NCBI GenBank assembly: GCA_949287985.1
Contig: CASEIN010000055.1
Coordinates: forward strand, 1 to 64,000
Direction of reading: 5' to 3'
Origin: Mucispirillum schaedleri
GTDB lineage: Bacteria; Chrysiogenota; Deferribacteres; Deferribacterales; Mucispirillaceae
DNA length: 64,000 nucleotides
A model generated the notes under the pieces. It saw only the letters and a program-made list of their open reading frames with translations. It was not told where the DNA came from and searched no databases. The position numbers were made by a program, and so were the translations under genes. Numbering within the stretch: position 1 is the first letter of the stretch; every line of letters starts with the position of its first letter. Below, in pieces: positions 12,130 to 20,666 of the stretch.

Positions 12130-13515
12130 ATGAGTGATAAACCATGGGCTGGCAGATTTAACCTGCCTACAGATAAATTTGTTGAAGAATTTAATGCATC
12201 AATCTATTTTGATAAAAGATTATATAAATTTGATATAAAAGGCAGCATTGCTCATGCTACTATGCTTAGCAGGCAAGGTATAATTGATGAAAGTGAAGCT
12301 CGTATTATTGTTGCAGGATTAGAACAAGTTCTTGAAGAAATTGAAAATGGTCAGTTTGAATTTAATATGGCTGATGAAGATATACATATGGCAGTGGAAA
12401 AAAGACTAACTGAAATAGTTGGACCTGTTGGTGGTAAACTGCATACTGCAAGAAGCAGAAATGACCAGGTGGCTGTAGATATTAGAATGTATATAATGTA
12501 TGAAGCAGATTCTGTAAAAGCATACCTTATAAACCTTATGAAAGTAATTGTTGATAAAGCAGTTAATAACCTTGGAGTTATAATGCCTGGCTTTACCCAT
12601 TTACAAACTGGGCAGCCTATATTATTCTCCCATTATTTAATGGCTTATTTTCAAATGTTTAAACGTGATTTTCAACGTTTTAATGATATGATGATGCGTG
12701 CAAACTACTGCCCGTTAGGTGCTGGAGCACTTGCTGGCACAACATTTCCAATAGATAGAAATTTTACAGCCAGTCAGCTTAATTTTTATGGTCCTACTGA
12801 AAACAGTATAGATTCAGTATCTGATAGAGATTTTGTAATAGAATTCTTATCAGCAGCAAGTATTACCATGATGCATTTATCAAGATTTTCTGAAGAAATA
12901 ATACTTTTTTCAAATCCAGATGTTAATTTTATATCATTAACTGATGATTACTGCACAGGTTCTTCTATTATGCCACAAAAGAAAAATCCTGATATTCCAG
13001 AATTAATTAGAGGAAAAACTGGCAGAGTATATGGCAGCCTTATGACAATGCTTACAATTATGAAAGGGCTTCCACTTGCTTATAATAAAGATATGCAGGA
13101 AGATAAAGAGCCACTTTTTGATACTGTTGATACAATACTTGCATCTCTTAAAGTATTTGCCCCTATGGTTGAAAAAATGCAGGTATTAGAAAATAATATG
13201 AAAAATTCAGCTGGTAAAGGATATTCTACAGCTACAGATTTAGCAGATTATTTAGTTAGGAAAGGTGTCCCTTTCAGGCAGGCACACCATATAGTTGGAA
13301 AAACTGTTGCTTATGCTATTGATGTTAATAAAAATTTAGATGAACTTTCCATTAATGAAATGCAGCAGTTTTCAAAACTTATAGATAATGATATTTATAA
13401 CTATATAACACTAGAAGCTTCTGTAAACAGCCGTAACTCATATGGTGGCACATCAGCAGAATCAGTTATGACTCAAGTGAAGCTTGCAAAGAGTTTTATT
13501 GATGAAAATGTTTAA
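12130..13515 (+). CDS. argH: Argininosuccinate lyase
   Basis: A 461-residue member of the fumarase/aspartase superfamily that cleaves argininosuccinate to arginine and fumarate. It starts KPWAGRF, has [14 protein letters not shown] and [10 protein letters not shown] (catalytic His), and the superfamily signature [12 protein letters not shown] with the mobile catalytic Ser. Length is normal. It begins 2 bases after hisE and its 3' end overlaps the lipoprotein gene by 14 bases, so all four plus-strand genes look co-transcribed. Confidence 0.98.
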
Positions 13516-14386
13516 GCATATATATATTATTGCTTTACTTATTTTTTTATCATCTTGTGGTTTAAAATCAGATGTAGTTCCTAAAGGCTCATTTGATATA
13601 CCATACCCTACAAATATTGATTATGCAATTAACAATGATGGTGTAACAATTTATAATGGCAGTGATAATTACACATTATTTGTTGAACGTGCAGATGAAA
13701 GCATTGGGTTTATTAATCTTTCAAGCTATAAACGTGTTGCATTAATTAACCCAAAACAAACTTATACAGATGAAGATGTTATTAATAATAGAATATATAA
13801 ATACAGATTTCGCCATTATAATGGTAGGGTAAAAACATACTCACCTGCTGTTGTTAGAACTGTAAAATACTATAAACCTATTAAACATGATATAATCAAT
13901 GCAACATTTGAAAAAAATAAAGTATGCTTATATTTAGGTTTAAGTGAACGGATTGATAGAACTGAGGTAAATATTAATGGTGTAATGGTTGGCAATGCAA
14001 AAAATGGATTAAAAACATGTTTTGATAATTACCCTAATACTTCAGTAAATTTAGTTATTACTGCCATACCTTATGATAAAAACAATAATACTGGTATTCC
14101 ATATAAGACTACAATAAAACGTAATGCTGCTGCACTTAATCTTCCACCACAAAACATACAGGTTAGAAGAAATGGAAGTGATATTGTAATTGTATGGGAT
14201 AAAGAAAAAAATTCTCCAAAATACAATATATATCTTGTAGAAAATGGAAAAGATAAATTATACAAGCAAATAGATATTGAATTATTTAGGTATACTGCTA
14301 AAACTGATAAATGTGTGGAGTTTAAAATATCAACTGTTCGTAAAGGTAAAGAATCTAAAAGAATTGCAGTTTCTGCATGTAAATAA
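13502..14386 (+). CDS. Predicted lipoprotein with fibronectin-III-like C-terminal domain
   Basis: About 294 residues. The N terminus [19 protein letters not shown] is a lipoprotein signal with lipobox L-S-S-C, giving Cys19 followed by GLKS. The rest is beta-rich; the last 85 or so residues ([35 protein letters not shown]) look like a fibronectin type III fold. The ATG at 13502 overlaps the end of argH; ATG 13508 is a second option. Small lipoproteins next to argH occur in several Gram-negatives (LptM/YifL-like), but this one is much longer and I cannot assign a role. Its stop abuts the stop of the convergent gene with no base between. Confidence 0.72.
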
Positions 14387-15118
14387 CTACTTAAACAGGC
14401 CGTAAAACCAAATTCTTGCTCCATCTTTTAAAATATAGTCTTTGGTTCTAAAGTATTTTTTAGAGGTAGAATTATCTCCGTCCATACCACTTTCCAACCT
14501 TATACAGCCTTTATAATTATAATAATATGCAAGTTGAGTATTTACGTAATAATTACAGTCACTACTAATCATTCTTGCATCAATTGGAGCTACTGGATAT
14601 GGTGCAATATCTATTTTCTTTAAAATTATTTCTTTTTGAGTTTTATCTGCATTTGCGATATATTCAAGACGATGTATATTTTGTTTGTAATAACTTTTAT
14701 GCTCACCAAAACTAATTATAGAGCCTGTAAAATCATCAGAATTAAATACAGAAAATAAAGAGTAAAAACAAATGAAAATAATAAATTTCTTTTTATGAAT
14801 ACAAAACATATTATAAAAATTTATGTAATACAGTAAGTAAATATTACCAAAAATAAAGGTAATCAGTGAAAAAGTTTGTGGTATTACTTTTGCTCTTGGT
14901 GGAAGCCCTAATGCCCCAAGACCATAGGAAATAACAAAATGAGCAGCCCAGCTTAAAACTATACCTAAACCAATAAATATAATACCATGATATTTGTATG
15001 ATAAATTAGGAAAAATTTTTTTAGGTTTATTATTATGAAAAATAAGATATAAAAATAACGAAACAGGAATAACTGCAGTTGCAAAATAATACGAAAAACC
15101 ACGCTCTAAAGATGTCAT
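14387..15118 (-). CDS. DUF6056-like membrane glycosyltransferase, C-terminal part (out of frame)
   Basis: A 243-residue reading frame with about six hydrophobic segments, then a polar C-terminal domain (about 150-243) typical of the end of GT-C-like membrane proteins. Its first ATG overlaps the stop of the upstream part (TAATG), but the frame stays open before that ATG as NTDLLFGIYRGLMTSLERG, back to the G run at 15155-15163. That upstream stretch reads as natural protein, so this is very probably the C-terminal half of one gene with the piece at 15118-15885. Independent restart through TAATG coupling is possible but would give a half-protein. Confidence 0.7.
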   Translation of the reverse strand: MTSLERGFSYYFATAVIPVSLFLYLIFHNNKPKKIFPNLSYKYHGIIFIGLGIVLSWAAHFVISYGLGALGLPPRAKVIPQTFSLITFIFGNIYLLYYINFYNMFCIHKKKFIIFICFYSLFSVFNSDDFTGSIISFGEHKSYYKQNIHRLEYIANADKTQKEIILKKIDIAPYPVAPIDARMISSDCNYYVNTQLAYYYNYKGCIRLESGMDGDNSTSKKYFRTKDYILKDGARIWFYGLFK

Positions 15119-15885
15119 TAACCCCCTGTATATGCCAAATAATAAATCAGTATTCCCCCCCCCGCTCTATTACTGCTGCCAGGGGCAAAAAGAATAAAAA
15201 TAAATGCCACAATTAATACTAACATATTTAGTGTAAGTAAAGATTTTAATCTAGTATTTTTATAAACAATGCCATATAAAAATATCAAAAAATATATTAT
15301 AAAAAATACTAAAAACAGTGCTTCATTAGAAAATGATGAAATAAAAAGAATGGTTGATGAAAGAAGCACTAAAAATATTGTATATAATAAGCTATCAGTA
15401 TAATAAGCTTTAAGTAAAAGATATATACTAAAAAACATTAATGTCATTGGAAATAAATAATTAAATATCCCACCATACCAAAGGACTGTATCATTCATAG
15501 AATTTAGGCTTAATAACCATATGAATAGGAAAATACAAGTTAAAGAAAATATATCTTTTTTACTAAAGCTTTTAAATATAATTGATAAAAGCAGGTAAAC
15601 AACTATACCAAAAAATATAAAAGTAAATATAGGAAGTATTTGATAAATTATTAGATTATTATTAGATACACCTGCAAAAAAATGATATAGTGTGTTTGAA
15701 AATATTCTACCACTTGAGCCATACAAATAACTATTTATTGCTAGAGTAAATGAATTTAAAGAATATTTTGCACCATAGATAAAATCATCTGCTGATGGAA
15801 AATTATAAATAGAAAAACTAATTAAATAAATTGAAAAAAATATAGAGATTAATGCAAAATAATATAAGTATCTATTATACAGCAT
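15118..15885 (-). CDS. DUF6056-like membrane glycosyltransferase, N-terminal part ending just past a G run
   Basis: A 255-residue frame with about eight hydrophobic segments. DUF6056/GT-C-like marks are SADDF (about 31-35, the acidic pair after the first membrane helix), SSGR in the next loop and the conserved APGSSNR turn near the end. Right after NRA the frame enters nine G bases and ends 17 codons later. One added G, or two lost, joins it to the next frame to give about 498-499 residues, the usual size of the family. Such proteins are thought to add sugars from polyprenyl-phosphate donors to surface glycans. The ATG has a GGAGAG site and lies 15 bases after folE2, so it belongs to the rpmH-folE2 transcript. 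Confidence 0.75.
   Translation of the reverse strand: MLYNRYLYYFALISIFFSIYLISFSIYNFPSADDFIYGAKYSLNSFTLAINSYLYGSSGRIFSNTLYHFFAGVSNNNLIIYQILPIFTFIFFGIVVYLLLSIIFKSFSKKDIFSLTCIFLFIWLLSLNSMNDTVLWYGGIFNYLFPMTLMFFSIYLLLKAYYTDSLLYTIFLVLLSSTILFISSFSNEALFLVFFIIYFLIFLYGIVYKNTRLKSLLTLNMLVLIVAFIFILFAPGSSNRAGGGILIYYLAYTGG
15155..15163 (-). repeat. Run of nine G (coding strand) at the frame break: candidate phase-variation tract
   Basis: The plus strand shows nine C in a row. It is the longest G/C homopolymer I noticed in this otherwise AT-rich window, and it sits exactly where the DUF6056-like gene changes frame. Ten or seven G would give one open frame; nine gives a stop. Slipped-strand mispairing of such tracts is a well-known switch for surface genes in Campylobacter and Helicobacter. 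A base-calling or assembly length error in the run is the main alternative. Confidence 0.75.
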
Positions 15886-15900
15886 AAAGCTAACTCTCCA

Positions 15901-16677
15901 TTAGTATTTTCTTCTTTCTATCCTTGCCCATGCGTTATGGTTATGAATTGATTCCATATTTTCGCATTCCACTAAAAACCATGTGATTCTTTCATCATTC
16001 ATAAGTTTTTCAGATAAATTACGAACTATATCTTCCACAAATGCAGGGTTTTCATAAGCATGTTCTGTTACAAACTTTTCATCTTCCCTTTTTAATAGTG
16101 AAAATATTGGTGAGCTAGCAGAACTTTCAGCAATTTCTATTAAATCTTCAATCCATACAGTTTGATTAAAACGAACAGATATAGAAGCAATACTTCTTTG
16201 GTTATGAGCTCCATATTCTGAAATTTCTTTAGAACAAGGACATAATGACTGAACAGGCACTTTCACTGTTAATACAAAATCAAGCCCATTATTTGAGCAA
16301 GTGCCTGCAAACTCACATTCATAATCCATTAAAGAAGCAAGATTGGAAACTGGTGCTTTTTTCTCCATAAAATAAGGAAATTTTAATGATATAAATGATG
16401 TATGTGATGATAATCTTTCACGCATATCCTGTAATATAGAGCCTACATTATGAATATCCATATTATCTTTGTGTTTATTTAATATCTCCACAAACCTAGA
16501 CATATGTGTGCCTTTATATTGATGGGGAAGCTGCACACTCATAGATATTTTAGCAGTAGTATGCTGCACACCTTTACTTTTATCACGTAAAGATATGGGG
16601 TAAATTATATCCTTTATACCCACATTATCAATATCTATATTTCTAGTATCTTTAGAACTTTGAACATCTTCAAGCAT
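15901..16677 (-). CDS. folE2: GTP cyclohydrolase FolE2 (type IB)
   Basis: A 258-residue T-fold enzyme turning GTP into 7,8-dihydroneopterin triphosphate, the first step to folate (and queuosine). Family marks are VGIKDIIYPISLRDKSKGVQHTTAKISM, LPHQYKGTHMSRFVEIL, and VPVQSLCPCSKEISEYGAHNQRS, where the Cys of SLCPCS and the nearby acidic and His residues form the metal/catalytic site. Unlike FolE1, the family is not strictly Zn-dependent. It starts 7 bases after the TPR gene and is followed 15 bases later by the DUF6056-like gene. Confidence 0.96.
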   Translation of the reverse strand: MLEDVQSSKDTRNIDIDNVGIKDIIYPISLRDKSKGVQHTTAKISMSVQLPHQYKGTHMSRFVEILNKHKDNMDIHNVGSILQDMRERLSSHTSFISLKFPYFMEKKAPVSNLASLMDYECEFAGTCSNNGLDFVLTVKVPVQSLCPCSKEISEYGAHNQRSIASISVRFNQTVWIEDLIEIAESSASSPIFSLLKREDEKFVTEHAYENPAFVEDIVRNLSEKLMNDERITWFLVECENMESIHNHNAWARIERRKY

Positions 16678-16684
16678 AAAGCAC

Positions 16685-17404
16685 TTATCTTCTAGTAATT
16701 TTTTGTCTACCTATTAAGGTTTGATACTGTTTAATACCATCTGGCATTTTTGCAAGATGAAGTTGTAACCATAATGTGCCGTAAGCCTGCATTTTGATTT
16801 TCTTTCTATTTTTTAAAGCATCACTTGCATTTTGCAGCCTTTCATCACTTGGAAGTTTTTTCATAGCTTTTGCAAGCACAGCAATAGCACCATCAACATC
16901 ACCAGTTTCAGATAAGAAATATGCATACAAGCATTGAGTAAAACTGTCTTTTTTATTGGCTTTAGATGATTTTTCCATAACAGCTTTCATATTTGCATAA
17001 TCTTTTTGTTTATAATAATATGCTGCTAACATACTCATAGACATCCAGTTAGCTTTCAATGAATTTTTTAAATAAGGCAGTGCTTCATCAAACCTTTTGT
17101 TAGCATATAAAATAATACCAATTTGAGAATCTATTTGCTGTTTTACTAAAAACTGCCATTTAGCATATTTATACCCAGCTTTCATTTTTTCAATTGCAAT
17201 ATCTGCTTTACCTGACTTAATATCTTTTTCCGTTGAGTTAAATACAGCTGTTAACTTGTTCATAAAGTAACGTCCCATAAAAAAGTTAAAAACTAATATA
17301 CCTACAACAAATGTAATACTTGCAAGTACAAAGCTTGGATATATAAGATAACCTAAATAACCTGTTATAATACCAACTAATATACCTAGTAATAATGTTA
17401 ACAT
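16685..17404 (-). CDS. Membrane-anchored TPR-like protein, unknown
   Basis: A 239-residue protein. Residues 1-20 and 24-42 are two close hydrophobic segments (LLLGILVGIITGYLGYLIYPSF, ASITFVVGILVFNFFMG). The rest is alpha-helical with tetratricopeptide-like repeats (KRFDEALPYLKNSLKAN; TGDVDGAIAVLAKAMKKLPSDE). It is probably anchored in the inner membrane with the TPR part in the cytosol, serving protein-protein contacts. It sits between the YHS-protein gene and folE2. I do not recognise a named family; a link to membrane-protein assembly is only suggested by the yidC-jag context. Confidence 0.7.
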   Translation of the reverse strand: MLTLLLGILVGIITGYLGYLIYPSFVLASITFVVGILVFNFFMGRYFMNKLTAVFNSTEKDIKSGKADIAIEKMKAGYKYAKWQFLVKQQIDSQIGIILYANKRFDEALPYLKNSLKANWMSMSMLAAYYYKQKDYANMKAVMEKSSKANKKDSFTQCLYAYFLSETGDVDGAIAVLAKAMKKLPSDERLQNASDALKNRKKIKMQAYGTLWLQLHLAKMPDGIKQYQTLIGRQKITRR

Positions 17405-17420
17405 TAAAACTCCTACAAAA

Positions 17421-17675
17421 CTAACTATTATTAGTATGTTTTTCTATAAATTTATTTTTACATTCATCAGAACAAAAGTAATATATTTTATCATGCAGTT
17501 TTACTTTATATTTTGTAGTATCTTCCACAAATGAACCACATATGCTATCCTGCTTCATCTCAACAGCATTTATAGTATCATTAGACTGTTTTTCGATTTG
17601 TTTCTTATCTTTCATTCTGAAAAATAAAACAATACCTGCAACAACAGCAAGTAAAAATGCAATTTTTGTAACCAT
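17421..17675 (-). CDS. Small membrane-anchored YHS/TRASH-domain protein
   Basis: An 84-residue protein: an N-terminal hydrophobic anchor (about 4-20), a polar linker, then a YHS-type metal-binding domain with C46 (DSICGSFV), C68 and C72 (YYFCSDECKNKF). This Cys arrangement binds a transition metal in relatives, where the module sits in Cu or other heavy-metal handling proteins. Its ATG overlaps the jag stop (TAATG), so the two are translationally coupled. The metal and partner are unknown. Confidence 0.8.
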   Translation of the reverse strand: MVTKIAFLLAVVAGIVLFFRMKDKKQIEKQSNDTINAVEMKQDSICGSFVEDTTKYKVKLHDKIYYFCSDECKNKFIEKHTNNS

Positions 17676-18367
17676 TAATTATCTTCTTTTCTATTTCTAT
17701 AATTTCTTTTATTACCATTAAAACGGCGGTTATTACCTTTTGATTTTTCTGATACAATAGAAATTTGTTTTAATGGTCCTTCACCTGTTGATATAGTAGT
17801 AATACCCGGTATGCTTTTTAAAGCAATATGTATTTCTTTACGTATAATACTAGACATTGGTGCAAGCTTAAATGGTCTGCCGCTTCTTTTTACTTTTTCA
17901 GCCATTGCAAGAGCTTTAGATACATTTTCTTCCACCCTTCTTTTTCTGTAATAACCAACATCAACAATTAAGCTGACAGAAGTATCTTCTGGTAAATTAA
18001 TCATTTTATCAAAAACATACTGTAATGCATCTAATGTTTGAGCAGATTTACCAATTAAAAGTTCAGGTGTATCTGTTTCAATGTTTAATATTACTCTATT
18101 ATCATTATTTTCTGCTGTTACATGAGCATCAGCAAAACCTGCTTTTTCTAAAAGTTCATTTAATAATAACTTACCTTTCTTTTTTACATGTTCTACTTCA
18201 TTATAACTAATTTTTACTTTTGCTGTTTTCTTACCAAGCCCAAATAAACCTTTTGAACCTTGTTCCATTACTTCATATTTTATATAATCAGAAGGAACAT
18301 CTTTTTCTTTCATGAAATGAGCAACAATTTCCTCAACGCTATCGCCTTCAACTTCAAATATCCTCAT
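17675..18367 (-). CDS. jag: RNA-binding protein Jag/KhpB (SpoIIIJ-associated)
   Basis: A 230-residue protein with the full Jag order: Jag-N (about 1-52, MRIFEVEGDSVEEIVAHFMKEKD..GLFGLGKK), KH domain (about 75-150, with TPELLIGKSAQTLDALQYVFDK) and R3H (about 150-210, RKRRVEENVSKALAMAEKVKRSG), then a basic Asn/Arg-rich tail (GNNRRFNGNKRNYRNRKEDN). It binds RNA and in many bacteria is encoded next to yidC, as here. GAGG precedes the ATG. In many genomes mnmE follows; here a YHS protein does. Confidence 0.95.
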   Translation of the reverse strand: MRIFEVEGDSVEEIVAHFMKEKDVPSDYIKYEVMEQGSKGLFGLGKKTAKVKISYNEVEHVKKKGKLLLNELLEKAGFADAHVTAENNDNRVILNIETDTPELLIGKSAQTLDALQYVFDKMINLPEDTSVSLIVDVGYYRKRRVEENVSKALAMAEKVKRSGRPFKLAPMSSIIRKEIHIALKSIPGITTISTGEGPLKQISIVSEKSKGNNRRFNGNKRNYRNRKEDN

Positions 18368-18396
18368 AAGATTACCTCATTTTATAAATCATACAA

Positions 18397-19953
18397 TCAA
18401 TTTTTACGTTTATTAATAATATACTGCTGTATAATAGAGAGTATATTATTTGTAAGCCAGTATAACACAAGTCCTGACTGGAAATTAATAAACAGGAACG
18501 TAAATATAACCGGCATTGCTAAAAATATTTTTTGCTGCACAGGGTCTGCTGTGCTTGGTGTCATTTTTTGCTGTATAAACATTGCTATACCCATAAGTAT
18601 AGGTGTAATATAATATGGGTCTTTTGCTGATAAATCCACTATCCAGCCAAAGAATGGAGCGCCTTTTAATTCAAGAGATAATAAAAGGGCTTTATATAAT
18701 GCAAAAAATATTGGAATTTGTAATAGTAATGGGAAACAACCACTTAATGGATTAACATTATGCTCTTTATAAAGCTGCATTGTTACCTGATTAAGTTTTG
18801 CAGGGTCATTTTTATATTTTTCACGAAGTTCCATCATTTTTGGCTGCAATTTCGTCATCTCTTTCATAGATACCATACTTTTTATTGTTAATGGTAATGT
18901 TAATATTTTTACAATAATTGTAAGGAAGATAATTGCAATACCATAGTTGTGAAAAATATCATATAAGAAATTTAAAATATAAAGCATAGGAATAGCTATA
19001 AAATAAAACCAGCCATAATCCATACTTTTTTGTAATGAAAGCCCATATGATTTTAATTCATCATAATATTTAGGACCAACATATAAGCTAAATTTCGCAT
19101 CATGCCTGCCTGATGGGTTAACAATAAAATCAGTGCTAATGGAAGCAACAGCTAAATTATTTTCAGGTGATATTTCAGCCTTCTTAAATAAATCATTACT
19201 TGCTGCTGCAAATAAGAAATATTTAGATGTGTAACCTGCCCATACAGCATTATCTAATGTTTCCTTATCTGTATCATCTGCTTTTATTCTATATGTTTTA
19301 CCACCATTTGTAATAACAGCCCCTTCAAATACATACATACTGTCTTCAAAACCACTGCCAAGCTTAGGTCCAATCTTTACATTTAATGGCACATTTAAAG
19401 ATGAGTTACCTGTATTTGTTACACTAACAGATGTATTTATAATATAGCTTGTATTTGAAAGCTCATATGATTTTGTTACAATTAAAGAACCAGCCTCAGC
19501 TGTAAAAGAAACTATAATACCATTATCCACTTGAGTAACTGTTTTTTGATAACCATTTGCAACAGGTGTTAAAAGAGATGCATAATCAGTATTACCATTT
19601 TTATTAAAAGTTACACGTCCACCCTCTGTATCTGCCCAGTTTAATAAAGATACACTTCTAATATTACCAGTCTGGCTGTTAAATGTAACTTCCATAAGTT
19701 TAGATTTTTCAGTTGTTAAAGTTGCAGGAGCAGATACTTCTACATTATTATTTTGAAGCTCTACATTGTTAACTGTAGTAGTGCTGTTATTATCTGCTTT
19801 AGAAGCAGAATTTACAGGTGCTGCTGGAATTTTTGCAGCAGAAGAATTATCAACCACTGGGGCTTCTGGTGTAAATATTGGAACAACAATATATGTCCAC
19901 CCAAAAATAACTATAAAACTAAGCACAAGGGCTAGTAATGTCCTTTTATCCAT
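18397..19953 (-). CDS. yidC: Membrane protein insertase YidC
   Basis: About 518 residues, Gram-negative type: a first membrane segment (MDKRTLLALVLSFIVIFGWTYIVV), a large periplasmic beta-sandwich domain (about 55-310) and the conserved five-helix insertase core (FHNYGIAIIFLTIIVKILTLPLT; MKEMTKLQPKMMELREKYKNDP; NPLSGCFPLLLQIPIFFALYKAL). It inserts membrane proteins alone or with SecYEG. I chose the ATG at 19953 because AAGGA lies 8 bases before it; the frame extends to 19977 without a site. It is followed by jag after 29 bases. Confidence 0.97.
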   Translation of the reverse strand: MDKRTLLALVLSFIVIFGWTYIVVPIFTPEAPVVDNSSAAKIPAAPVNSASKADNNSTTTVNNVELQNNNVEVSAPATLTTEKSKLMEVTFNSQTGNIRSVSLLNWADTEGGRVTFNKNGNTDYASLLTPVANGYQKTVTQVDNGIIVSFTAEAGSLIVTKSYELSNTSYIINTSVSVTNTGNSSLNVPLNVKIGPKLGSGFEDSMYVFEGAVITNGGKTYRIKADDTDKETLDNAVWAGYTSKYFLFAAASNDLFKKAEISPENNLAVASISTDFIVNPSGRHDAKFSLYVGPKYYDELKSYGLSLQKSMDYGWFYFIAIPMLYILNFLYDIFHNYGIAIIFLTIIVKILTLPLTIKSMVSMKEMTKLQPKMMELREKYKNDPAKLNQVTMQLYKEHNVNPLSGCFPLLLQIPIFFALYKALLLSLELKGAPFFGWIVDLSAKDPYYITPILMGIAMFIQQKMTPSTADPVQQKIFLAMPVIFTFLFINFQSGLVLYWLTNNILSIIQQYIINKRKN

Positions 19954-19983
19954 AAAAAATATCCTTATATCAAACAAAATACC

Positions 19984-20238
19984 CTATTTTACAGGGTCAT
20001 AGCCACCCTTATTAAAAGGGTTGCAACGCAGGATACGCCAAACTGTAAGTAACATTCCTTTAAAAAAACCTTTCTTTTGAAAGGCCTCCACTGCATAAGT
20101 TGAGCAGCTTGGATAAAAACGACAATGGTTTCCCAAGTATGGAGAAATACAATATTTATAACACTTTATCAGCATTATTGCCAGATTCTTTGGCTGCAAT
20201 AACCTTAAAAAGTGAAAGAATTTCTCTTTGAATTTCAC
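19984..20238 (-). CDS. yidD: Membrane protein insertion efficiency factor YidD
   Basis: Up to 84 residues; the family core is [57 protein letters not shown] with the conserved Cys residues and CNP-GG-D-P end. It helps YidC insert membrane proteins. The start is uncertain: ATG at 20238 overlaps rnpA by 83 bp, TTG at 20199 and ATG at 20175 are shorter choices, and homology seems to begin a few residues before the last. Overlap of rnpA and yidD is common. Confidence 0.9.
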
Positions 20239-20557
20239 TAAAATCAGCCCCTGCTGCTTTTGGCAGCCCCCTAATTATTACATAAATCCCATTAGGCAAC
20301 ATATTACTATTAATACGATATATTTCCCTAAGTATACGTTTTATTCTATTGCGTTTAACTGCTGATTTACTAACTTTTTTACTTACAGTAATACCTGCTT
20401 TAGAGTAACCACCCATATGTTTATAATAAATTATAAACATAGAGCTTGAAACACGTTTCCCCGTATAAACATTATTAAATTCAGTAGTTTTACAAATTCG
20501 TCTACTACGGGGGAAACTTTCAGGTTTAAATTGCAAGACGTTTACGACCTTTTGCAC
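20156..20557 (-). CDS. rnpA: Ribonuclease P protein component
   Basis: Up to 133 residues. The RNase P protein signature [24 protein letters not shown] is present; the N-terminal part ([22 protein letters not shown]) matches the family start. It binds the RNA subunit and helps cleave tRNA 5' leaders. The longest start is a GTG at 20557 that lies inside rpmH; a TTG at 20536 is an alternative that fits the usual family length better. Either way the gene overlaps rpmH upstream and yidD downstream. Confidence 0.94.
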
Positions 20558-20666
20558 GTCTTCTTTTTAAAACTAATCTGCCACCTTTAGTAGCCATTCT
20601 TGCACGAAAACCTTGTTTGCGAACTTTCTTTAAGTTGGTACGCTTTGCTAAAGTAAGCTGTGCCAT
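20526..20666 (-). CDS. rpmH: 50S ribosomal protein L34
   Basis: A 46-residue frame found by reading the minus strand from ATG 20666: it ends [20 protein letters not shown] then [10 protein letters not shown], the L34 signature. The N-terminal 15 residues ([15 protein letters not shown]) differ from the usual MKRTxQPS start. GGAGG (20678-20674) lies 7 bases before the ATG and a strong promoter precedes it. It heads the rpmH-rnpA-yidD-yidC-jag operon; dnaA, often divergent here, is not adjacent. Confidence 0.96.

Follow-up and report, generated by a model that had tools for sequence, protein, structure and literature searches.

A Run of Nine G Divides a DUF6056 Gene

Is a gene that is interrupted at a homopolymer misassembled, decaying, or switched off for the time being? 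The question is raised by a DUF6056 membrane-protein gene (14387..15885, minus strand) found in the 64,000-nucleotide stretch of DNA from an uncultured Mucispirillum gut bacterium analysed here (the window), where it is out of frame in assembly GCA_949287985.1, a draft genome of 2.44 Mb in 79 contigs. A first inspection of the letters (the sequence-only reading) had placed nine G between two minus-strand frames and proposed a phase-variable gene. The run is indeed exactly nine G long (15155..15163, minus strand) and codes Gly-Gly-Gly if read in frame. ORF analysis gave 245 open codons in the frame entering the run, closed by a stop 11 codons past it, and 255 open codons in the frame leaving the run, which differs from that of the upstream half. 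The upstream half (15118..15885, minus strand) has a predicted truncated product of 255 residues in the G9 state, and the first ATG of the downstream half (14387..15118, minus strand) overlaps the upstream-half stop (TAATG). The motifs SADDF, APGSSNR and NTDLLFGIYRGLMTSLERG, noted earlier, were located in the two halves. Among the G/C runs of the window, 101 have length 4 and 12 have length 5, none has 6, 7 or 8, and a single one has 9. A homopolymer of at least eight within the reading frame, above chance expectation, is the mark of a repeat-driven phase-variable gene, and the run-length spectra place the DUF6056 run in that position.

The Gene Is Intact and under Selection in Close Relatives

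Comparisons between species used one genome per species: the own genome (G000), nine other Mucispirillum genomes of genus g1 (G001 to G009) and G011, which belongs to genus g3 of the same family. The closest named relatives in a contig search were uncultured Mucispirillum genomes. In the nearest one, G005 (96% identical), the run has ten G and the DUF6056 frame is whole with 499 residues, bearing out the length that had been predicted for ten G. The frame is also whole in G007 (90% identical), where nine G are followed by A, and in G008, where the three glycines are encoded as GGT GGG GGA without a long run. The G009 orthologue is decayed, with several breaks. Run length (9 in the own genome versus 10 in G005) therefore sets whether a full-length or a truncated product is encoded: the own genome is out of frame, and G005 and G007, with intact genes and other runs, are in frame. 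The dN/dS ratio is 0.15–0.17 before the run and 0.12–0.24 after it, which denotes purifying selection on both sides. Because both halves are under such selection, the G9 state reads as a frameshift that arose recently in a functional gene; orthologue states and dN/dS together argue that selection was still acting on DUF6056 as a single protein very recently and that the length of the run is the break. Apart from one distant relative, the contig scan matched only other species of Mucispirillum, and no same-species variants of the DUF6056 run were found among viral contigs.

Gene Neighbourhood and the Slot behind folE2

The DUF6056 gene is the last member of a tight rpmH-rnpA-yidD-yidC-jag-YHS-TPR-folE2-DUF6056 run on the minus strand. 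The upstream part of this run (15901..20666), with gaps of at most 29 nt, is the probable source of its transcript; a candidate promoter, TTGACA-17-TATTAT (20760-20732), lies ahead of it, and folE2 (15901..16677, minus strand) ends the series 15 nt upstream of the DUF6056 gene. These short gaps fit with the proposed steady transcription from a housekeeping operon. On the other side, the end of a convergent lipoprotein-like gene (13484..14386, plus strand) and the DUF6056 stop are one base apart.

The slot behind folE2 differs between species. DUF6056 is present there in G005, G007, G008 and G004 (in which it is cut by the contig end). Two lipoprotein genes, each with its own in-frame nine-base run, are found in G006, and other sequence in G003 and G009. 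Nothing is inserted in G002, where the orthologue of the convergent lipoprotein-like gene directly follows folE2 and shows the empty form of the slot. In G008 a broken second folE2 end and a broken DUF6056 end (L157:6823-7507) were observed behind the intact pair; these copies are a trace of tandem duplication at the folE2 slot.

Putative Function of DUF6056

The assignment to DUF6056 (Pfam PF19528) holds: the upstream half matches the family at E = 3.5e-13 and 49.6 bits (cut-off 27), and the intact orthologues match nearly the whole model at E = 1e-15 to 4e-21 (58–76 bits). Twelve positions are invariant in six DUF6056 proteins (N28, F29, D33, D34, R60, W136, G139, N142, Y143, E188, P235 and R240), the last of them just before the G run. 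The acidic pair D33-D34, invariant in the same six proteins, follows the first membrane helix, and an acidic pair in this position marks GT-C enzymes. DUF6056 paralogues of G006 and G007 lie ~420–440 nt after a GT2 gene, which in G007 matches GtrB sll0501 (E = 8e-96). DUF6056 is a polytopic membrane protein and, from this family context with paralogues beside a GtrB-like enzyme, probably a glycan-modifying transferase. The GT2/GtrB-like neighbours are consistent with a possible dependence of this transferase on a polyprenyl-phosphate-sugar donor. A profile search of the PDB with DUF6056 returned no match at E ≤ 10, PHROGs and NCBIfam gave no useful match, and no literature on DUF6056 was found. 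An AlphaFold model computed on a four-row DUF6056 alignment had a pLDDT of 38 and was unusable.

A Nine-Base Class of G/C Runs in the Genus

The own genome has 30 G/C runs of at least eight bases (one of 8, 24 of 9, four of 10 and one of 11), whereas just one run is exactly 7 long. Since 30 runs of eight or more stand against one of seven, their number does not follow a chance decay with length, and a chance origin was rejected on the run-length spectra of the window, the genome and the order. An excess of runs of exactly nine over those of exactly seven is found in nine of the ten Mucispirillum genomes: 24:1 in the own genome, 37:2 in G001, 24:0 in G002, 32:1 in G003, 22:1 in G005, 33:5 in G006, 25:2 in G007, 18:0 in G008 and 10:1 in G009; in G004, which is 57% complete, the ratio is 2:2. 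The free-living order-mates have the reverse skew, with sevens exceeding nines; the ratios in the other families of the order are 1:61, 0:22, 4:71, 0:15, 1:18, 1:36, 2:19, 1:34, 1:13, 5:159 and 2:91. The Mucispirillum genomes examined carry 29–49 runs of at least eight. The closed, single-contig genome G006 has 49, also with a nine-base mode, so the excess is not an artefact of draft assemblies. A ratio of 60:11 and one poly-C promoter were observed in G011, which suggests that the sister genus probably has an even larger phasome, or set of slippage switches.

Loss of mismatch repair, a conceivable driver of these runs, was not found in the own genome and was rejected, as mutS1 and mutL are intact. 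Slippage rates may therefore be modest.

Reading frames contain 17 of the 30 runs, of which ten are in frame, five are out of frame and two lie near the C-terminus. The run-bearing genes have Pfam matches to GT2, GT8, GtrII, FdtA, sulfatase, formyltransferase, SAM-methyltransferase, FAD-dependent oxidoreductase, two N6/N4 DNA methylases and MBOAT (the latter below cut-off). One of them is a type III mod gene with an in-frame G9, whose end is overlapped by res (L051:2-4224, on another contig of the own genome; MTase_III E = 5.6e-208, REase_III E = 1.4e-228). In G005 the run of this gene is G11, and the orthologue is read out of frame. A second methylase gene was observed to be broken at a G10 run (L049, near 3001), with a helicase-like gene downstream (L223:3006-6131).

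Run length differs in seven of 16 orthologous pairs between the own genome and G005. Orthologues of five genes are in opposite reading phase: the DUF6056 gene of the window, a sulfatase (C17), the type III mod (C57), a methyltransferase (C60) and a GT8 gene (the latter relative to G007). In a control alignment of two species, G/C runs of 9–11 differed in 5 of 13 cases, A/T runs of 8 in 3 of 11 and A/T runs of 7 in 3 of 39. Because long A/T runs vary too, length variation alone is weak evidence, and the argument rests on the excess and the placement of the G/C runs.

Poly-C Promoters

Ten runs of the own genome, all outside the 64-kb window, occupy the spacer of 15, 16 or 19 bp that separates a TTGACA (−35) from a TATAAT-like (−10) box. 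Random sites pass the same test in 3.3% of cases, so that about one would be expected by chance against the ten seen. This recurrent promoter, TTGACA-C9-TATAAT-like, accounts for about a third of the own-genome runs. Most of the ten are followed by genes, several at ~40–200 nt ahead of genes for lipobox-bearing or exported proteins. The C9 runs in spacers of 15–16 bp near position 3001 of L037, L042, L043, L044, L047, L048 and L052 (other contigs of the own genome) mostly precede genes for lipobox-bearing, outer-membrane-like or membrane proteins. Of the ten g1 genomes, nine have the TTGACA-poly-C-TATAAT pattern, as does g3; the same search covered 49 other genomes and found it in none of these. 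Spacers with perfect consensus boxes in G006 range from 14 to 17 bp and from C8 to C11. A repeat-rich lipoprotein gene of 708 residues (L038, near 3001) also has a G10 run 126 nt ahead of it, and a clear promoter around this run was not seen.

A broader proposal, which we regard as evenly poised between true and false, is that TTGACATT-Cn-ATGATATAAT may be a genus-wide dispersed promoter module acting as a portable rheostat for unrelated lipoprotein and membrane-protein genes. Together with the coding G runs and the switching type III methylase, it would let a mucus-dwelling commensal stochastically re-draw its whole surface, with the folE2 slot as a hot spot for the exchange of genes switched in this way.

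Proposed Switch and Alternative Explanations

We consider it very likely that the DUF6056 gene is switched by slippage at the level of translation and belongs to a Mucispirillum phasome. Slipped-strand changes in the poly-G run coding for three glycines would switch DUF6056 translation: with nine G the frame would be lost and translation would stop 11 codons later, the off state of assembly GCA_949287985.1, and in the frame of G005 and G007 ribosomes would read through to 499 residues, the on state. As the final gene of a housekeeping operon, it would be transcribed together with rpmH-yidC-folE2, and switching it off would harm no downstream gene. The locus would be part of a phasome of ~30–50 poly-G/C runs per genome, most of which lie in reading frames for surface-glycan or membrane functions or for DNA methyltransferases and roughly one in three in promoter spacers. 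The runs are probably such a genome-wide set of slippage switches, by which the bacterium would flip its surface on and off at random in the manner of Campylobacter and Neisseria. Three independent lines (intact orthologues with other runs, purifying selection and a genome-wide G9-type class) support the phase variability proposed by the sequence-only reading. The sequence states, the length differences between species, the selection and the genome-wide excess are observations; that the run slips within a strain and turns expression on and off is inferred, as is a glycan role of DUF6056.

Three other explanations were weighed. Expression might be split in the G9 state, re-initiation yielding two half-proteins or ribosome slippage yielding some full-length product. 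The junction reads AGGGGGTTAATGACA, the stop overlaps an ATG (TAATG, 15113-15125) with AGGGGG just before it, and this ATG corresponds to a Met in the intact orthologues. However, all intact orthologues conserve TTA ATG as Leu-Met, which means that coding alone explains the overlap, and the length differences together with the other 29 runs favour control by slippage; split expression is unlikely. It is somewhat less likely still that an assembly or sequencing error hides a run that is always in frame, with DUF6056 expressed constitutively. The draft nature of the 79-contig assembly, the error-prone sequencing of homopolymers and the in-frame DUF6056 genes of G005 and G007 would agree with an error. 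The ten other runs of the assembly that are in frame and the five that are not speak against it, and its weight is reduced because the pattern is seen at 30 loci and its nine-base mode recurs in a closed single-contig relative. Even if this one run were misread, its length class and placement would stand.

The least probable of these explanations is that the frameshift is fixed and marks the onset of pseudogene decay without reversal. Decay does occur in the family, as seen for the broken G009 orthologue and for the remnants of a second copy in G008, but the 1.5 kb gene of the own genome has no second lesion, its dN/dS is 0.12–0.24 over both halves, and its sole lesion is in a run of hypermutable length that belongs to a genome-wide class.

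Comparison with Known Systems

The putatively slippage-switched DUF6056 gene can be compared with glycan-modification loci and with the phasomes of other bacteria. Gtr clusters for O-antigen or glycan modification combine GtrB with a serotype-specific transferase. Similarly, a GT2 gene precedes the DUF6056 paralogues of G006 and G007, and a separate GtrII-family gene of the own genome carries a G9; unlike in gtr clusters, the DUF6056 gene of the window is a lone gene that closes a housekeeping operon.

Type III mod phasevarions are described in H. influenzae, Neisseria and H. pylori (e.g. PMC3230613). The mod gene of the own genome, a candidate phasevarion with its in-frame G9, overlapping res and out-of-frame G11 orthologue in G005, resembles them, but here the repeat is poly-G and the phylum is another one. 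In Neisseria meningitidis opc, poly-cytidine between the −35 and −10 boxes sets their spacing (Sarkari et al. 1994, as cited in PMC5084427). The Mucispirillum promoters have the same poly-C position with a surface-protein gene behind; unlike opc, nearly the same promoter recurs within one genome, where it precedes several unrelated genes, and throughout the genus.

No report of a phasome in Mucispirillum or Deferribacteres was found in the open-licence literature on phase variation, hypermutable repeats and poly-G runs, and the genome paper of M. schaedleri describes none in its main text. In the mouse gut, Mucispirillum is counted among the core bacteria; it also figures in a defined mouse flora and has been linked to inflammation in mouse models (PMC5285517, PMC9600240). 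A 2025 review asks why genomes rich in phase-variable genes appear to be restricted to pathogens, and if this is just a sampling effect (PMC11868660); a phasome above the C. jejuni median in a mouse gut commensal bears directly on that question. The idea is testable in gnotobiotic mice; if it is true, one reference sequence would not describe the surface met by the host.

The closest likeness is to the phasome of Campylobacter jejuni, for which the PhasomeIt survey reports a median of 20 runs of at least 7 per genome and, in one C. jejuni/C. coli genome set, 52% 9G and 30% 10G, nine G being commonest (PMC6321876). The two have in common many poly-G runs that lie mostly within reading frames with G on the coding strand, nine as the commonest length, and glycan, methyltransferase and surface genes as carriers. 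They differ in that Mucispirillum is a gut commensal of another phylum with 29–49 runs of at least 8 (against the median of 20 of at least 7), a third of its runs are in promoter spacers, and mutS1 and mutL are intact here. In the candidate phasome a known mechanism turns up where it was not expected: it is a Campylobacter/Neisseria-like system in a gut commensal of a different phylum, and the DUF6056 gene of the window is one predicted off-phase member.
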